From: a virus
Reading direction: 5' to 3' (one strand)
Length of the DNA stretch: 20,538 nt
Virus record (IMG/VR): IMGVR_UViG_3300020185_000318
Location: 1-20,538 of that record
Positions 9,272 to 20,538 of this stretch are shown one piece after another (within the stretch, counting starts at the first letter, position 1; the number at the start of each line of letters is the position of its first letter). The notes beneath the pieces are model-generated. The model was not told the origin of the DNA. It did not search any database and saw only the letters and a list, made by a program, of their open reading frames with translations. The position numbers were made by a program, and so were the translations under genes.

Positions 9272-9287
9272 TATTGTTATATTATAT
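9272..9287 (+). promoter_or_regulatory. Shared late-unit motif, copy B
   Basis: TATTGTTATATTATAT overlaps the first two bases of the ATG at 9286. It differs by one base from copy A at 7190-7205. Upstream of it ACACTATAAA (9259-9268) resembles ACACTAAAAA (17463-17472) before the XkdF-like gene. Confidence 0.4.
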
Positions 9288-9948
9288 GAAAGTAGAAATA
9301 CAAATACCAAGTAGCTTATCTGAAATAACACTAGAGCAATACCAGAAATTTGCTAAGTTAAACACAGAAGAAAATCAAGACAGCAGCTTCTTAATGCACA
9401 AGACTGTAGAGATATTCTGCGACCTTAACCTAAAGGATATAGCTAAGATTAAATACATCTACGTACAAGAGATACTAAACGATATAAACAAACTGTTTGA
9501 ATCTAAACAAGACTTGACACCTACGTTTACAATGAAGGGTGTTGACTATGGTTTCGTACCTGTGTTAGATGATATGACATTAGGAGAGTACATAGACCTT
9601 GATGAGAACTTTACTGATTGGGATATGATGCATAAGGCTATGGCGGTTCTTTACAGACCTATCACATTACAAAAGGGAGACAGATACCAAATAGAAGAAT
9701 ACGATGGACTAGAGAAGTCTGAGTTAATGAAGCAAATGCCTTTGGATATTGTAATGGGTTGTATGTTTTTTTTTTACAATTTAAACAACGAACTACTGAA
9801 AACTACCCTGAACTATTTGAATCAGGAAATACCGAAGGAACTGACTACGGAGCAGCTACAAACTTTGGCAAAAAGTGGGGGTGGTATCAATCACTCTATG
9901 GACTCTCTAAGGGAGATGTTAGACGATTTGAACATATCACTAAATTAA
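9286..9948 (+). CDS. Tail-assembly-chaperone-like protein (short form)
   Basis: This 220-residue product is read without frameshift. The sequence has a helical N-terminus (SSLSEITLEQYQKFAKL), FTMKGVDYGFVPVLDDMTLG, a conserved-looking EYIDLDENFTDWDMMHKAMA and VLYRPIT, then GCMFFFYNLNNELLK with the T10 run, and a C-terminal tail SMDSLREMLDDLNISLN. I recall such proteins from flavobacterial phages but no assigned function. The position before tail genes and the frameshift site suggest a gpG/gpGT-like chaperone role. ATG 9286 is chosen because the upstream codons of the open frame overlap the cassette terminator region. Confidence 0.65.
   Translation: MKVEIQIPSSLSEITLEQYQKFAKLNTEENQDSSFLMHKTVEIFCDLNLKDIAKIKYIYVQEILNDINKLFESKQDLTPTFTMKGVDYGFVPVLDDMTLGEYIDLDENFTDWDMMHKAMAVLYRPITLQKGDRYQIEEYDGLEKSELMKQMPLDIVMGCMFFFYNLNNELLKTTLNYLNQEIPKELTTEQLQTLAKSGGGINHSMDSLREMLDDLNISLN
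9766..9775 (+). other. T10 run, candidate -1 ribosomal frameshift site
   Basis: Ten T in a row span zero-frame codons TTT TTT TTT (9766-9774) plus one further T at 9775. A -1 slip here leaves the 9286 frame and enters the frame that runs to 10028. The heptamer T TTT TTT fits the X XXY YYZ slippery pattern. A base-count error in the run is the alternative. Confidence 0.6.
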
Positions 9949-10028
9949 ACTTTCACGAGTGCTTTATGTTTTTAGCATTTGAAAAAGAAAAGAACCAACT
10001 AGAAGCAAAACTAATTAAGAACAGATGA
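9774..10028 (+). CDS. Frameshift extension of the tail-chaperone-like gene
   Basis: After a -1 shift the frame reads FLQFKQRTTENYPELFESGN, then FGKKWGWYQSLYGLSKGD, VRRFEHITKLNFHECFMFLA and FEKEKNQLEAKLIKNR, to TGA 10026. Joined to the first 163 residues this gives a 247-residue product. The only ATG in this frame is at the CFMFL methionine near 9966, after the conserved-looking GKKWGWYQSLYGLSKGD segment, so independent translation is unlikely. The first 175 nt are read in two frames. It overlaps the next gene by 4 nt (ATGA). Confidence 0.65.
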   Translation, partial: LQFKQRTTENYPELFESGNTEGTDYGAATNFGKKWGWYQSLYGLSKGDVRRFEHITKLNFHECFMFLAFEKEKNQLEAKLIKNR

Positions 10029-10480
10029 CAGGATTTTACAACGTAACAAAGATAATAAAGGATGCACTTAATGCAGAGCCTTTTGTAAACACGGTTTCTT
10101 ATGGTAGCTTGGATGATGTTGATTTAAACAAACAAACTATCTTTCCATTATCTCACATAATAGTAAACAACTGTAATGTAGTATCCAATACAATGACGTT
10201 TAACATTAGCATACTAGCAATGGATATTGTAGATGAATCAAAGGACGAGGTTACAGATATCTTTGTAGGTAATGATAATGAGCAGGATGTTTTAAATACT
10301 CAGTTAGAAGTCCTTAATAGAGTTGTAGCGTTATTACAGAGAGGGGATTTATATACAGACCTATTCCAAATAGAAGGAACTGTAGGATGTGAGCCATTTG
10401 TAGACAGATTTGAGAACAAGTTAGCTGGATGGGCTGCAACGTTTGACGTATTAGTTAAAAACGATATGACAATATGTTAA
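10025..10480 (+). CDS. Tail terminator/tail-completion candidate
   Basis: This is a 151-residue α/β protein: MTGFYNVTKIIKDALNAEPF, a strand pair (NTVSYGSLDDVDL, TIFPLSHIIVNN), then FNISILAMDIVDESK, a helix TQLEVLNRVVALLQRGD and a C-terminal LAGWAATFDVLVKNDMTIC. The size (about 150), the helix plus β-sheet pattern and the place between chaperone and neck or tail genes suit a tail terminator (gpU-like). The sequence itself does not prove it. It is flanked by an ATGA overlap upstream and a 7 nt overlap downstream. Confidence 0.55.
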   Translation: MTGFYNVTKIIKDALNAEPFVNTVSYGSLDDVDLNKQTIFPLSHIIVNNCNVVSNTMTFNISILAMDIVDESKDEVTDIFVGNDNEQDVLNTQLEVLNRVVALLQRGDLYTDLFQIEGTVGCEPFVDRFENKLAGWAATFDVLVKNDMTIC

Positions 10481-10980
10481 CCAATACTAAAGAATCTTTA
10501 GAGAAGTTCAGGAAGTTTGTTGCACAACAATCTAGAAGCAGACTATCTAAGGCTAGAAAGAACGATTCTAAGGGACTCTATAAGAAATTGGATGGTGTAT
10601 TAAAGGTTAGTCCTAATTCGTTTAAACTAAGCTGGGATTTAGGATATGGTAATTTCCAAGATAAAGGTGTAAGCGGAACTGAAAAGAAGTACAATACTCC
10701 TTATAGCTACAAGAGCAAGATGCCTCCAATAAAACCATTAGCTGACTGGGCTAAAAGAAAAGGAATAAAACTAAGAGACGAAAAGGGTAAGTTTAAAAAG
10801 GGTGGTTATAAAACACTAGGTTTTCTTATAGCAAGAAGCATACAGCGTAAAGGTATTAAGCCTAGCTTATTCTTTACTAAGCCATTTGAACAAGGATTTA
10901 AGAAGCTACCAGATGAACTACTAGAAGCATACGGATTAGACGTAGAAGAGTTCTTACAATTTACATTAAACAAAAAATAA
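10474..10980 (+). CDS. HK97 gp10-like neck/tail-completion protein
   Basis: This 168-residue basic protein has a helical, Ser/Arg/Lys-rich N-terminus (residues 1-45). YGNFQDKGVSG then matches the Y-x-x-F-x-x-x-G pattern of HK97-gp10-type head-tail connector proteins. It is followed by YSYKSKMPPIKPLADWAKRK and KTLGFLIARSIQRKG, and ends KPSLFFTKPFEQGFKKL (KPxLFFxxP, like the ARPFLxP motif). In related phages it completes the head-tail joint or tail tube end. It overlaps the upstream gene by 7 nt and the next gene by 1 nt (TAATG). Confidence 0.6.
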   Translation: MLTNTKESLEKFRKFVAQQSRSRLSKARKNDSKGLYKKLDGVLKVSPNSFKLSWDLGYGNFQDKGVSGTEKKYNTPYSYKSKMPPIKPLADWAKRKGIKLRDEKGKFKKGGYKTLGFLIARSIQRKGIKPSLFFTKPFEQGFKKLPDELLEAYGLDVEEFLQFTLNKK

Positions 10981-12464
10981 TGAGTACAAAGATAAACGCG
11001 AGAAGTCCATTCTTTATAGAAGCAACAGAACCTACAGTAACCTTAGGCATCTTTGATTGTACAACGGCAAACCTATTAAACTTTGCTGTAAGTTCAGCAG
11101 GAGACGTTACAGAGCCAAGTATTTTAAATGGTACTATAATAGATAGAACAGCAACTAGCTTTGCATCTAACACTTCTGGTAGTGCTATATCAAGAAGCGT
11201 AACATACACAATACAGATACCAACAGGATATTCTAACACAAGTGATGGTACTTTACTCTGTGTTAAAACTATAGACCAACCAAGTCAGACATCACAATGT
11301 AACCCAGCTACCAACAACAATATGGTTGTGTTTTCTGGTACTATTCCAGCTATTCCAAACCTAACATCTACAACGGTTAACTTAGCAACATACTTTACAG
11401 CGGGCTCAACGGCAAGCATTAGTAGTTATAGCATACAGAATTATGGAGCAGCTGCTATATCAACTTCGGTTAGTGGTAATACATTAACTATATCTACAGG
11501 AAGTAACTGTGCAGCTACTACTCTTAGAGTTACTGCATTCAATAGTGCGGATACCTGTACTACCATATCTAATACCTTTTCAGTTTCTGCAGCTTGTACA
11601 GAAGCTTTAGACTGTAGCGATGTTAATTTAATCGGTGGTGCTATATCTGCAACAGGGGTTATATCAAATCCAAGTTATTCAATAGCACACTTAGACCACA
11701 TAGAAGACTCAGGTGGTAATACAATTACATCAGTACCTTCAAACGGTGGAGCATCAGCTATAGACGTATCCTTAACTTTTGTATTTACAGTTCCAGCTGG
11801 TTATACAAATGCAGGTGCAGAACTAGAATGTACGCCAGCAGCTTTTTCACAACCTACAACGGCAGCACCTTTAGTTAATTTAGAATGTAGTGACGTTACC
11901 TTTAGTGGGTTTACAATTACAGACCAAGGAAATATAATAGCGGGTAATATTAGTTATTTAGGTACAACAACTTCAACACCTACAAACGTAACTACAGAAA
12001 CTGGTGGTTTTAAATATGATGTAGTTGCTAGTTTAACATCAAGAACGGTAAGCGTAACCTTTAGGGTTTTAAATACTAATTGGTTAAATAACAACACTTT
12101 CATTACTTGTACACTTCCTTTAACACAACCGCCTAGTGCTAACGCTTGTGATTTTGCTACAGGAAACTATGCAATATCTAGTCAAGGATTTACAGCAGCT
12201 AATTCATTTTGTGATAACAATGCGGTTTACTCAATATTAGTACAGGTTAATGGTACACCATCTACAGGTAATACGGTTTGCTATTTAGGTGATACGTTTA
12301 ACGGTGGAGGTAAATGGTATGCATACAATACTTCACAAGTACAAAATGGTGCTGGTAACATAGGAGCTTCATTTAATATAATGCAAATAGATTCAAACGG
12401 TACTATACTAGCAACAAACACCACTAATTGTCAAGGTGATGACGGCGGAGATACTCAACTTTAA
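10980..12464 (+). CDS. Modular tail protein, probably the major tail protein
   Basis: This 494-residue Ser/Thr/Asn/Gly-rich β-protein contains three similar cysteine-bracketed modules: about 27-103 (C27, C94), 212-293 (C212, C284) and 303-385 (C303, C377). Each runs from a Cys-led DCSDVxL-type strand to VTYTIQIPTGY-like strands, then LLC/LEC/ITC and a QP motif. A distinct Ig-like segment (107-206) lies between the first two. The last 100 residues start with ACDFATG and look like a further degenerate module. The position after neck genes and before tail tip genes suits a tail tube protein. No known catalytic motif; a fibre-like decoration protein is the main alternative. Confidence 0.6.
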   Translation: MSTKINARSPFFIEATEPTVTLGIFDCTTANLLNFAVSSAGDVTEPSILNGTIIDRTATSFASNTSGSAISRSVTYTIQIPTGYSNTSDGTLLCVKTIDQPSQTSQCNPATNNNMVVFSGTIPAIPNLTSTTVNLATYFTAGSTASISSYSIQNYGAAAISTSVSGNTLTISTGSNCAATTLRVTAFNSADTCTTISNTFSVSAACTEALDCSDVNLIGGAISATGVISNPSYSIAHLDHIEDSGGNTITSVPSNGGASAIDVSLTFVFTVPAGYTNAGAELECTPAAFSQPTTAAPLVNLECSDVTFSGFTITDQGNIIAGNISYLGTTTSTPTNVTTETGGFKYDVVASLTSRTVSVTFRVLNTNWLNNNTFITCTLPLTQPPSANACDFATGNYAISSQGFTAANSFCDNNAVYSILVQVNGTPSTGNTVCYLGDTFNGGGKWYAYNTSQVQNGAGNIGASFNIMQIDSNGTILATNTTNCQGDDGGDTQL

Positions 12465-15659: not shown

Positions 15660-15802
15660 TAGAGAACATTTTACAAATGCTAGAGATAGCAAAGAGAGAA
15701 GAGCAAATAGGGAAGTTAACTCACATTGCATTAGGAAAAAACAAATATCCTGAATCAATAAGAGAAGCATACAAACAATTTAAAACAGAACTATGTCAGT
15801 AA
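15656..15802 (+). CDS. 48-residue helical protein before the tape measure gene
   Basis: ATG 15656 overlaps the hub-like stop (ATGA), and the ORF ends at 15802, 10 nt inside the tape measure gene (ATG 15793). The protein is helical and charged: MIENILQMLEIAKREEQIGK, then HIALGKNKYPESIREAYKQF. The double overlap strongly suggests coupled translation with the tape measure protein, where many siphophages encode a chaperone. A chaperone function is only inferred; the size is far below gpG. Confidence 0.6.
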   Translation: MIENILQMLEIAKREEQIGKLTHIALGKNKYPESIREAYKQFKTELCQ

Positions 15803-17457
15803 CAAAGACTATTGAGATTGAAGCAAGGGTTGATAAGGCTGAGAAAGACTTAGAGGGTGTTGCAAAATCTGTACAGAATATAGATAAGAACTTAGAAGGT
15901 GTAAAAGATTCTTCTAACGTAGCAGCTAAAGGTATTAAGGGAATTGGTACGGCTTTAAAAGCTGCTGGTATTGGACTAGCTATTGCTGCATTCGGTAAAC
16001 TTGTAGAAGTTTTTAATGAGAATCAAAAAGTAGCCGATGCATTTAACACAACATTTGAGGCACTTAGTTTAGGCTTTAATGACTTCTTTAATTTCTTAGA
16101 TAGAAACGCTGGAACTGTAATAGATTATTTTAAAGGAATCTTTAGCGACCCTAAACAAGCGGTTATAGATTTAGGTCAAGCTATAAAAGATAACATTATA
16201 GAACGCTTTAATAGTACCTTAGATATGCTAGGATATTTAGCTACAGCATTTAAGCAGGTATTTGAAGGGGATTTTGATGGTGCTATGCAGTCGGCTAAAA
16301 TGGCTGGTAAGGAGTATGTAGACGTATTGACTGGAGTTGATGGTAGTGTTGACAAAGTAGCTAGTACTATTTCTAAGGCAGCTACTGGAATAGCAGACTA
16401 TGCTAAAAGCACACTAGATGCAGCTAAGTCAAATGTAGACCTAACTAAATCGGCAGAGGTTGCAGCGGTTAAGCAACAGGGTCTAGTTGAAAAGTACGAC
16501 AGACAAGCAGAACTTCAAAGACAAATTAGAGATGATGAATCTAAAAGTATAGAAGAAAGAGTTGCAGCGAATACAAAGCTAGGAGAAATTCTTGACGAGC
16601 AGGAAGCTGCAATGTTAAAACAAGTTGACGTTCAGTTACAAGCAGCACAAGCTCAATATGATAAAAACGGAAACCAAGAAAACTATATAGCTTTATTAGA
16701 AGCACAAAACGAAAAAGAAGCTGTACAGGCACAGATTGCAGGCTTTAGGTCAGAGCAATTAACTAACATCAATTCATTAGAAAGAGAGCGTGTAGACTTA
16801 ATAAAAGAAGAGCGTGAAAATGATTTAGAATACTTTGCAGAAGAAGCAGACCGAAAAGCAAAAGAAGACGAAGATAAAAAGAAAGCACACGAAGAGGAGT
16901 TAAAGCAAAAAGAAGAAATAAGACAAGCAACCTTAAACAACCTAGATACTATAATTGCTTCGGCAGGTCAAGAAACTAAAATAGGTAGGGCGTTATTCAT
17001 TGCTAAACAAGCTATGTTAGTTAAAGAACAAATTGCAAAAGCAAAAGCTACATTGACTGAGCTAGGAATGATTGCAGCAAAAAGCGGAGCGGATATAGCT
17101 TCTGGTGCTGGTGCAACTGCTAAAGTTGGTTTTCCTCAAAACGTTCCTTTATTAATTGCGTTTGCAGCTCAAGCTGCTGGTATATTTTCAAGTATAAAGT
17201 CTGCGGTTAATGCTGCTAAAGGAAGTGCATCTAAGATGGGAGCTTCTGGTGGTGGTTCTGTATCTATGCCTAGAATGTCTGCTGCCTCATCTGCTCCACC
17301 ATCATTCAACGTTGTAGGAGCAAGCGAAACAAACCAACTAGCACAATCTATAGGACAAGATGAGAAACAGCCTATAAAAGCCTTTGTAGTGTCTAACGAT
17401 GTAAGTGATGCACAATCACTAGACAGAAACATTATAGAATCAGCTTCAATAGGATAA
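15793..17457 (+). CDS. Tape measure protein
   Basis: This 554-residue protein has the expected layout. A helical N-terminus (TKTIEIEARVDKAEKDLEGV) is followed by a Gly/Ala-rich hydrophobic segment (about 48-70, KGIGTALKAAGIGLAIAAFG). A long charged coiled coil then runs from about 205 to 385 (for example ERERVDLIKEEREND and EDKKKAHEEELKQKEE), and a Gly/Ser/Ala-rich C-terminal part contains SKMGASGGGSVSMPRMS. It runs inside the tail tube and sets its length; at about 1.5 Å per residue it predicts a tail near 80-85 nm. It is short for this family, matching a medium siphovirus tail. Confidence 0.85.
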   Translation: MSVTKTIEIEARVDKAEKDLEGVAKSVQNIDKNLEGVKDSSNVAAKGIKGIGTALKAAGIGLAIAAFGKLVEVFNENQKVADAFNTTFEALSLGFNDFFNFLDRNAGTVIDYFKGIFSDPKQAVIDLGQAIKDNIIERFNSTLDMLGYLATAFKQVFEGDFDGAMQSAKMAGKEYVDVLTGVDGSVDKVASTISKAATGIADYAKSTLDAAKSNVDLTKSAEVAAVKQQGLVEKYDRQAELQRQIRDDESKSIEERVAANTKLGEILDEQEAAMLKQVDVQLQAAQAQYDKNGNQENYIALLEAQNEKEAVQAQIAGFRSEQLTNINSLERERVDLIKEERENDLEYFAEEADRKAKEDEDKKKAHEEELKQKEEIRQATLNNLDTIIASAGQETKIGRALFIAKQAMLVKEQIAKAKATLTELGMIAAKSGADIASGAGATAKVGFPQNVPLLIAFAAQAAGIFSSIKSAVNAAKGSASKMGASGGGSVSMPRMSAASSAPPSFNVVGASETNQLAQSIGQDEKQPIKAFVVSNDVSDAQSLDRNIIESASIG

Positions 17458-17486: not shown

Positions 17487-18401
17487 ATGGACATAATAGA
17501 ATTATTTATAGACGAAGAAGATGAGGTTTCTGGAATAGAAGCTGTATCAATCGTAGAATCCCCTGCAATTGAAAGCGACTTTATAGCATTGAAGAACCAA
17601 GAGTTCAAGTTTGCAGAAGTGAACAAAGAGAAGCGTATTCTTATGGGTGCAGCTTTGATTCCTAATAAGCCTATATACCGAAAGAACGATGAGAATGAGT
17701 ATTATATTTATTTCTCTAAAGATACTGTTCGTAAGGCTTCTGAACTATTCTTTATACGTGGCAATCAGAATAACTCAACACTTGAACACAATGTACCTTT
17801 AACAGGATTGACTGCGGTTGAAAGTTGGATTGTAGAAGATGAGAAAGACAAAACAAGATTCTACGGTTTAGATGTACCGATAGGAACTTGGATGCTTTCA
17901 ATGAAAGTTCAGAACGATGAAGTCTGGAATGACTACGTTAAAAGCGGAAAAGTAAAAGGATTTAGTATTGAAGGATACTTTGCAGATAAATTAGAGAGAC
18001 CTAACGAACCAAAAAAAGATATGAGTAAAGAAGAAATAGCTGAAGCTAAAATAGAAGAACTAAGACAATTGTTTTCTAATCAAAAAGTTGATTTAGGTCT
18101 TATAGATGAAGTTAAAAAAGTATCATCAACTATTGAAAGTGATTGGAAAAAAGCATTACGAATTGCTGAAGATGGTTCTAAAAATTTAGTTTTTAAATTA
18201 AATTCTAAAATAAAACCATTAAGAAGTCAAGTACTCTCATTAAAGGATGGTATAGAGAAAGCTGAAAAAATGCTTAAAGATTTAGGTATAGGTAAAAACT
18301 CAGATATTGCCCAAGCTAAAAGAGAATTAAACATTGCAAATGGGCAAATAGCCGAACTTGATAGAATAATTAAGAATTTATATAATTATATTAATTATTA
18401 A
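17487..18401 (+). CDS. XkdF-like prohead protease with extra C-terminal domain
   Basis: This 304-residue protein has an N-terminal domain (1-165) that resembles PBSX XkdF and related prohead serine proteases: EAVSIVESPAI at 18-28, RILMGAALIPNKPIYR at 50-65, YYIYFSKDTVRKA at 72-84, H101 (TLEHN) and S160 (KGFSIEGYF) as the likely catalytic pair. Residues 174-304 form a separate helical, Lys/Glu-rich part (KIEELRQLFSNQK ... DRIIKNLYNYINY) with a markedly lower G+C content (about 18-32% over 60 nt blocks). It could be a scaffold or cargo domain fused to the protease, as delta-domain-like helices do in HK97-type phages. The gene follows the tape measure gene, an unusual place for a head protease. 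Confidence 0.75.
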   Translation: MDIIELFIDEEDEVSGIEAVSIVESPAIESDFIALKNQEFKFAEVNKEKRILMGAALIPNKPIYRKNDENEYYIYFSKDTVRKASELFFIRGNQNNSTLEHNVPLTGLTAVESWIVEDEKDKTRFYGLDVPIGTWMLSMKVQNDEVWNDYVKSGKVKGFSIEGYFADKLERPNEPKKDMSKEEIAEAKIEELRQLFSNQKVDLGLIDEVKKVSSTIESDWKKALRIAEDGSKNLVFKLNSKIKPLRSQVLSLKDGIEKAEKMLKDLGIGKNSDIAQAKRELNIANGQIAELDRIIKNLYNYINY

Positions 18402-18411
18402 TTAAAATTTA

Positions 18412-18603
18412 ATGAGTAGAATACCTAGCCCTCAAAATGATAAGCGTGGATGCCTTTGCAAAAACGGAAAGTACTCCAGAAAATGTTGTGATGGAACTTT
18501 ACAAGCACAAGGTATAGGAAACATTACAGAAATAAGAGATTCACTTCTTCAGGAGACTGCGTTTAAAGTATTGCAAGAAGATAATAGTAAAATAAATTTA
18601 TAA
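18412..18603 (+). CDS. SEC-C-motif small protein
   Basis: This 63-residue protein contains GCLCKNGKYSRKCCDG at 13-28: C-x-C-x8-C-C, the spacing of the SEC-C zinc-binding motif known from SecA and other proteins (CPCGSGKKYKKCC). It is followed by TLQAQGIGNITEI, which I recall as a fixed neighbour in flavobacterial phage versions. It may be a zinc-stabilised adaptor. It lies between the protease and the fibre gene, and the next ATG overlaps its stop (TAATG). Start MSRIPSPQND follows an A+T-rich leader. Confidence 0.7.
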   Translation: MSRIPSPQNDKRGCLCKNGKYSRKCCDGTLQAQGIGNITEIRDSLLQETAFKVLQEDNSKINL

Positions 18604-20538
18604 TGGCAGATAAAAAAATAACCGAGTTAATAACAGTTGCAAGTGCTGACATTACAGGTTCTGAGATTTTCCCAATAGTACACAGCGGAGAAACTAAACA
18701 AACAACCTTACTAGCCGTAAAAGATTATGTTGAAACCAATATAACAGGTAATCCTGTAACTGGAATTGCTTTAAGCGGAAACACCTTAACGGTTACCTTA
18801 GAAGATAATTCTACTTTTGATGCCGATGTAACGGCTTTAGCTATTGACACTAACACAGATACTAATACTACTGTTTCTAGTGGTTTAGTAGATGACAACC
18901 TTTTGATACTAACTATGTCAGATGGTTCTACGGTTGACATACCTGTATCGTCTTTACTTGTAGATACTAATACTCAACTATCAGATTCGGATATAACGGC
19001 ACTAGGTTACATTAAAACAGACACAAATACACAACTAACTGATTCCGATATTGCATCTTTAGGGTATATAAAATCATATACTAATACACAATTATCTGAC
19101 TCAGACATTGCAGCCTTTGGGTATGTAAAGAATGACCAGAACACTCAGTTGACTGACTCTGACATAGCTGCTTTTGGATATATAAAGACCGATACTAATA
19201 CACAAATTAGTGATGCGGAAATTGCTGCATTAGGCTATATCAAGTTTGACACAAATACTCAGCTAACAGATGCCGAGATTACCAACCTTGGTTACATAAA
19301 AACCTATACTGATACACAGCTAACAGACGCACAGATTACTGCATTAGGTTATATCAAAACAGACACTAACACACAATTAAGTGACGCTGATATAGCTGCA
19401 CTAGGTTACGTTAAAACTGATACACAATTAACAGACGCTGAAATAGGTGCTTTCGGCTATATTAAAACTGATAACGATAACAATACTCAGCTATCTGACG
19501 CTGATATTGCAGCCTTTGGTTATGTGAAAACTGACACACAATTAACCGATGCAGAGATAGCCGCTTTAGGATACGTTAAGACAGACAATAATACGCAATT
19601 AAGCGATGCAGATATTGCTGCATTTGGATATGTTAAGACAGATAATGATACACAGCTATCAGATGCGGACATTGCTGCTCTAGGATATGCCAAGACTAGC
19701 AGTTTAAGAACTATTACAGCTGCTGAGATAGAGACTTTAAGTCACTTTGAGTATGATGCATCACAAGACCAATTAGTAGCAGATAGAGCTATTGAAACTA
19801 CTCTTAACTCATTATTCTTAGGTGAGCAGCACAAGATGTCTTCTGGTTCTGAGAATATCTTCTTTACTAACCTAACTTCAGATATTAACTTCTTTCCTAT
19901 GTGGGGAGGTCTTAAAGACCAAAGCATTGTAGCTAATCAAGGTTCTGACGGATACATTCCACCTAGTGGTCGTGTATATACCGATATGTTTAGTTTACCG
20001 TTAGGAGGAAGCCCAGTAACATCTACTGCTATAGGTTATTCAGGAGATAACTTCTTTGGCATCAATATCGCAGGATTAGGAATAACTACTGTTGCAGCTG
20101 AAGCTGTAGACCAGAGTTTAGTCCGCTTAGATTACAAAATATCAATTAATAGTAGACAAGTTTACAAACAAACATTACCTGAGAATGCAGTAAGAGCTGC
20201 AAATACAATAGCCGCAGGGGATACTATAGAATGGTTCTTTGACCATCCAGTAGACGTAAGAGCTGGTACTACTATATTTGCTGAGATACGTAAAGTAAGA
20301 AAATCAGATGATGTAGACTTAGGTGTATTCCAAGTTAGAGAAGGGGACACAGTAGACCCAACTTCAGGTCTAGTAAGATACCAATCTACAGTACACAATA
20401 GGTTATTTGAAGATAAAGACTTAGAATTTGCTTCTCCTAACCTAAGTAAAACAGCAATGGACTTTGGACTTGATTCTACAGGCTCTACGATACTTCTAAG
20501 AGACTTATCTCTAGGTTCTGACAATGTAATAGAATCAC
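18603..20538 (+). CDS. Fibre-like structural protein with repeat array (partial)
   Basis: ATG 18603 opens a frame with no stop to the window end (645 complete codons). The N-terminal 120 residues (TELITVASADITGSEIFPIV ... GIALSGNTLTVTLEDNSTFD) resemble β-rich attachment domains of phage fibres. Then come 13 copies of a 17-21 residue repeat such as TQLSDADIAALGYVK (about 18964-19695), and then a β-rich C-terminal region (HFEYDASQDQLVADRAI, SGSENIFFTNLTSDINFFPM, RVYTDMFSLPLGG). It probably forms a long trimeric-like fibre on tail or head that binds the host. The C-terminal end lies beyond the window. Confidence 0.7.
   Translation, partial: MADKKITELITVASADITGSEIFPIVHSGETKQTTLLAVKDYVETNITGNPVTGIALSGNTLTVTLEDNSTFDADVTALAIDTNTDTNTTVSSGLVDDNLLILTMSDGSTVDIPVSSLLVDTNTQLSDSDITALGYIKTDTNTQLTDSDIASLGYIKSYTNTQLSDSDIAAFGYVKNDQNTQLTDSDIAAFGYIKTDTNTQISDAEIAALGYIKFDTNTQLTDAEITNLGYIKTYTDTQLTDAQITALGYIKTDTNTQLSDADIAALGYVKTDTQLTDAEIGAFGYIKTDNDNNTQLSDADIAAFGYVKTDTQLTDAEIAALGYVKTDNNTQLSDADIAAFGYVKTDNDTQLSDADIAALGYAKTSSLRTITAAEIETLSHFEYDASQDQLVADRAIETTLNSLFLGEQHKMSSGSENIFFTNLTSDINFFPMWGGLKDQSIVANQGSDGYIPPSGRVYTDMFSLPLGGSPVTSTAIGYSGDNFFGINIAGLGITTVAAEAVDQSLVRLDYKISINSRQVYKQTLPENAVRAANTIAAGDTIEWFFDHPVDVRAGTTIFAEIRKVRKSDDVDLGVFQVREGDTVDPTSGLVRYQSTVHNRLFEDKDLEFASPNLSKTAMDFGLDSTGSTILLRDLSLGSDNVIES
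18964..19695 (+). repeat. 13-copy protein repeat TQL(S/T)D(A/S)(D/E)IAA(L/F)GY(V/I)K
   Basis: Thirteen tandem copies are encoded with a basic 57 nt period (19 residues); some copies are 17 or 21 residues between TQL starts. The protein pattern is nearly invariant, while codons differ widely between copies. Copies 8-9 and 10-11 look like a pair unit duplicated (LSDADI...LTDAEI). Confidence 0.85.

Follow-up and report, generated by a model that had tools for sequence, protein, structure and literature searches.

We report that two overlapping reading frames of a 20,538-nt viral DNA stretch (the whole of which is hereafter called the window) belong to an unannotated gene family whose sequences are best read as encoding a conserved programmed −1 frameshift, behaving like that of the lambda G/GT tail chaperones. 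This reading follows from the conjunction of an invariant run of T at the junction of the frames, of coding constraint on both frames past that run, and of the lack of a start for the second frame in 31 of 51 lineages. On this basis, the gene is probably a frameshift gene of the G/GT kind, for which a tail-assembly chaperone pair would be the most likely identity. Systems of this kind are already known; what is new here is the long, selected dual-coding overlap, together with the alternative C-terminus that it provides.

The features of the locus are collected in table 1. An earlier note, made from the letters of the window alone, had described a run of exactly ten T at which a 220-residue frame meets a second frame, and both the run and the coordinates of the two frames agree with the sequence. 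The −1 frame is open from position 9723, right after a TGA, to the TGA at 10026–10028, and a tandem −1 slip on T_TTT_TTT would join residue 163 to LQFKQRTTENY..., giving a product of 247 residues, in which both the direction of the shift and the length of the fusion put forward in that note are recovered by computation.

Table 1. Coordinates in the window of the two frames, the candidate slip sites, and the junction with the next gene
Feature	Position (strand)	Remarks
Zero frame, "G-like" product, 220 aa	9286..9948 (+)	ATG 9286, TAA 9946–9948; conserved core (residues 1–163) and 57-residue tail
Slippery run T10, ATG TTT TTT TTT TAC	9766..9775 (+)	Proposed tandem −1 slip on T_TTT_TTT, 9768–9774 in register
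−1 frame extension, "T-like" domain, 84 aa, KWGWYQS...EKEK	9774..10028 (+)	Joined after the proposed slip
Dual-coding overlap, 57 codons in both frames (171 nt)	9775..9945 (+)	Subject of the stop, rate, and identity tests
Second in-frame heptamer T_TTA_AAC (zero frame aaT TTA AAC)	9780..9786 (+)	Possible auxiliary slip site; not universal among relatives
ATGA, −1 frame stop overlapping the start of the next gene (10025–10480)	10025..10028 (+)	ATGA in 141/154 loci; next gene present in 153

Relatives were gathered from IMG/VR, where a search with the zero-frame protein returned 80 loci and an aligned set of −1 domains, used as query, returned more than 500 related stretches, 80 of which were kept; a genome search added two MAG contigs. 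The main family count refers to 154 related loci in which both frames are complete, and the stop and start tests to 51 lineages sharing less than 80% nucleotide identity. One contig was left out as chimeric or recombinant: over L062:1946-2600, it matches the window at 98% identity along 143 residues, beyond which comes a divergent homolog out of frame, this junction inside the frameshift gene being either recombinant or mis-assembled. At the nucleotide level, the window had no match among phage records, and only 2 of 395 Bacteroidetes genomes matched the family, one of the two weakly, which indicates that it is found mainly in virus contigs; these belong to uncultured tailed phages, probably of marine Bacteroidetes. 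Flavobacterium phage 6H was considered as a cultured relative and set aside, its fold match being weak (TM about 0.35) and its frames lacking the same T run.

Among the 154 complete loci, 111 have T9 and 43 have T10, with no other length, and the downstream domain is always in the −1 frame relative to the run; the lengths of 8 or 11 T, either of which would fuse the two frames into one, were looked for and are absent. Nearly all loci of the −1 domain are readable at the junction and every readable one has T9 or T10, the same run also standing at the same frame junction in loci found via the downstream domain alone. The base before the run is G, C, or A, and the codons are mostly NTT TTT TTT TNN or TTT TTT TTT TNN. 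The core of the run shows almost no substitution over 43 taxa, when upstream wobble sites underwent a mean of 8.2 changes, and the neighboring wobble positions vary freely around this near-invariant stretch; likewise, the Phe codons at the slip are TTT in 102 cases out of 102, as against 76% TTT upstream. The earlier note was right in placing a slippery run here, but the ten T that it described are not special, T9 being the commoner form.

As for elements that might stimulate a shift, the 15 codons leading to the run were no more conserved at synonymous sites than others (0.56 vs. 0.49–0.61 elsewhere) and gave no sign of an upstream element, and downstream RNA structure was sought without success, the alignment being devoid of covariation, the energies weak, and the z values of single sequences ranging from −1.8 to +0.9. 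Four nucleotides 3′ of the T run, the window also carries T_TTA_AAC, a strong slippery heptamer of the coronavirus type, which is in frame in about half of the relatives as well. It is, however, very unlikely that slippage takes place mainly at this heptamer with the T run as a mere bystander: many relatives have AGC, AAA, or GGG in place of its AAC codon (giving for instance TTTAAGC or TTTAGGG), so that it cannot be the common slip site, whereas the T run is universal.

Downstream of the run, the overlap is truly dual coding across the family, with both frames under selection at the protein level. This was assessed by redrawing the synonymous codons of one frame while holding its protein fixed, and by counting the stops that arise in the other. 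With the −1 protein fixed, 4 zero-frame stops were observed in the 51 lineages over the first 50 codons of the overlap when 135.8 were expected, all four of them in Nonlabens phage P12024L; with the zero-frame protein fixed, no −1-frame stop was observed when 186.6 were expected in the same 51 lineages, all of these counts being taken over related lineages and hence not over independent events. Control genes from the same loci, submitted to the same procedure, returned observed/expected ratios of 1.00 and 0.99. Substitution rates tell of the same constraint: the parsimony changes per site at zero-frame positions 1/2/3 pass from 2.9/1.6/8.2 upstream to 2.1/3.7/3.5 in the overlap, as it should be if a second frame has its wobble at position 2 and its first base at position 3. 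In divergent pairs, zero-frame synonymous wobble identity is 0.84 in the overlap as against 0.52 upstream, and zero-frame amino acid identity reaches 0.423 there when 0.286 would be expected from the −1 protein alone (0.298 vs. 0.277 in a control region), which implies that the zero frame is under a constraint of its own, even if KWGWY in the −1 frame imposes part of its conservation, namely the GxGI motif. Past the run, the zero frame continues for 51–79 codons in relatives other than the Nonlabens phages. The synonymous-site conservation and the search for homologs in both frames that the earlier note had called for are accordingly positive, two frames and not one being conserved, and its impression that the 57 zero-frame codons past the run look coding is borne out by the stop and identity tests.

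With regard to these observations, the simplest objections to a frameshift fare poorly. Homopolymers are error-prone in sequencing, and a miscounted run or a decayed pseudogene could in principle produce two broken frames; this explanation is refuted by the family data, given that T9 or T10 stands in 154 out of 154 loci, always in the phase keeping the frames apart, that both frames are under selection, and that the GenBank phages P12024L and P12024S agree. The alternative of an independent second gene, initiated by itself and translated without any shift, would draw on the TTG at 9759, which is in frame and is the sole possible start ahead of the −1 domain in the window (where, as the earlier note had said, no ATG is present), and on some close relatives that have ATG or GTG at this very place. 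Nevertheless, we hold such a separate gene to be highly improbable: from the last −1 stop up to the KW motif, 31 of the 51 lineages are devoid of ATG, GTG, and TTG alike, only 1 of the 51 has an ATG in that stretch, and the invariant T run would be left unexplained.

A more serious rival would place the slip in transcription, the RNA polymerase adding a base (or dropping two) within T9/T10 in such a way that some mRNAs carry the fused frame. Slippage of bacterial RNA polymerase on homopolymeric A or T is known (PMC3711429), the run never falls below nine, its length of T9–T10 suits such slippage, and a ribosome-stimulating RNA structure was not found. Against this, a length of nine is what results from the heptamer and its neighboring codons, with NTT (Val/Leu/Ile) before and the T of Trp/Tyr after, to which TTR Leu in the −1 frame also contributes, so that no surplus length is being kept; moreover, the lambda-type tail-chaperone frameshifts are ribosomal (PMC5009743). 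All in all, we consider transcriptional slippage unlikely, and slippage of the ribosome likely.

Under a ribosomal −1 shift, most ribosomes would read straight through the T run and yield the 220-aa protein, made of the 163-residue core and of the 57-residue zero-frame tail, when a minority of them would move one base back, with two Phe-tRNAs on T_TTT_TTT, and yield the 247-aa protein, in which the same core carries the 84-residue helical domain in place of the zero-frame tail. The two forms would presumably be made in a fixed ratio and would most likely act as a chaperone pair in tail assembly, the core possibly binding the tape measure or another copy of itself and the −1 domain recruiting the tail-tube subunit, as for gpG/gpGT in lambda. 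Given that the 171-nt overlap encodes both C-termini, the shift would swap one end of the protein for another rather than merely lengthen the short form. We lean toward the view that the frameshift is a switch between two functional C-terminal domains encoded by the same 171 nt: if selection maintains the 57-residue helical tail of the unshifted protein in its own right, then the binding partners would differ between the two chaperone forms. Since the next gene starts on the stop of the −1 frame (table 1), it may also be translationally coupled to the shifted ribosomes.

The function of the pair can be approached through its gene neighborhood, in which a conserved order leads from the terminase through the frameshift gene and two neck-like genes to the tail genes; in calling genes neck, tail-tube, or tape measure, we rely on our own reading of the sequences, for which the libraries give only "virion structural protein." The frameshift gene directly follows the large terminase gene, and the tape-measure candidate (15793–17457) lies 5.8 kb downstream, the position before the neck genes and the distance to the tape measure both being as the earlier note had them; the probable major tail protein is encoded at 10980–12464. 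Farther along, downstream of the tape-measure candidate, the product of 17487–18401 is an XkdF-like head protease (Pfam PF14550); from the terminase to that gene, neither a portal nor a capsid gene was recognized, which makes for an unusual order. The region 18603–20537 encodes a protein of structural appearance, in which a GYIKTDTNTQLTDSDIAAL unit is repeated many times in tandem.

The zero-frame product matches PHROG 32199 with E=4e-21, as do all 46 of the 46 members of its alignment that were scanned; no function is assigned to this family, and its model has 175 positions, meaning that little of the zero-frame tail is covered. PHROG 166, a "tail protein" family, was weakly matched by 5 of the 46 members, Pfam and NCBIfam returned no family match for the products of the frameshift gene, and a sequence search of solved structures with both products gave nothing credible. 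The AlphaFold2 model of the zero-frame product has a mean pLDDT of 80, with values of about 78–93 over residues 1–160, and a helical tail of low confidence (about 52–62 from residue 171); that of the −1 domain is helical, with moderate confidence (pTM 0.42). With Foldseek, the 220-aa model found no match in the PDB and 34 matches in BFVD at E≤0.001, all phage proteins bearing no functional name, the nearest functionally named match being a weak one to a "Tail assembly chaperone protein" (E=0.064, prob 0.97); the −1 domain model found two BFVD matches at E≤0.001, both unnamed.

Because the close BFVD matches are unnamed, the PDB yielded none, and the named match stands at E=0.064, the tail-chaperone role is to be taken as likely by analogy. 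The tail-chaperone-like label given to the gene by the earlier note finds indirect support in the frameshift architecture and in the genomic context, but neither in Pfam, NCBIfam, or the PDB nor in a place adjoining the tape measure gene. As a matter of fact, the gene has two features of the G/GT class, in that its two frames are joined in −1 by a conserved slippery site and that its second frame lacks an independent start in most lineages, when a third, the place between the major tail protein and tape measure genes, is not the one that it occupies. A real programmed shift could instead produce a pair with another task, for example a head–tail connector or a packaging helper, as might be suspected from a gene that directly follows the large terminase throughout the family and that has no structural match to solved tail chaperones. 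We nonetheless find this doubtful, for G/GT genes typically pair a short form with a −1-extended one inside a phage structural cluster, the genes directly downstream are neck-like and tail genes, and both the weak PHROG 166 matches (5/46) and the named tail assembly chaperone model point toward the tail.

The comparative data thus show that more than 50 truly double-coded codons can be maintained in a tail-chaperone-like frameshift gene throughout a large set of environmental phages, in which genes otherwise lack annotation; the double-coded length is several times that found in lambda, P2, or actinobacteriophages. Programs such as PRFect, which search for frameshifts by giving weight to the closeness of the slip site to an in-frame stop, do poorly on long overlaps, and genes of this type are therefore easily missed. 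The extra end of the short form also offers a testable case of alternative C-termini, as opposed to a simple extension.

The resemblance to lambda G/GT lies in the arrangement, that is, one gene with a −1 shift near the end of its first frame and a second frame reached by that shift, to which may be added that the next gene starts within the end of the second frame, as for T/H in lambda. However, the two show no detectable sequence relation, the slip site is GGGAAAG in lambda and T_TTT_TTT here, the overlap is of about 18 nt in lambda versus 171 nt here, and the next gene, which is the tape measure in lambda, is not so here. The E/E+E′ pair of P2, which is essential for the tail, is likewise produced by a −1 shift at a slip site of the poly-T type (TTTTTTG), and the end of E′ overlaps the start of T; its sequence is unrelated, its overlap is of about 20 nt (annotated shift site at 19685, end of E at 19705) versus 171 nt, and it directly precedes the tape measure gene T when the present gene lies 5.8 kb before its candidate. 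In the tail chaperones of the SEA-PHAGES collection, the zero-frame remainder after the slip averages 26 nt (PMC10885494). The closest counterparts are the cultured and sequenced Nonlabens (Persicivirga) phages P12024L and P12024S, which are homologous in both frames, carry the gene after the terminase, and have the run CTT TTT TTT TAT, although the arrangement is annotated in them as two hypothetical genes. In P12024L, P12024L_40 and P12024L_41 are the halves of one frameshift gene (L082:12001-12695), the latter being annotated from an internal ATG, and the zero frame stops 25 codons past the run, as compared with 57 in the window.
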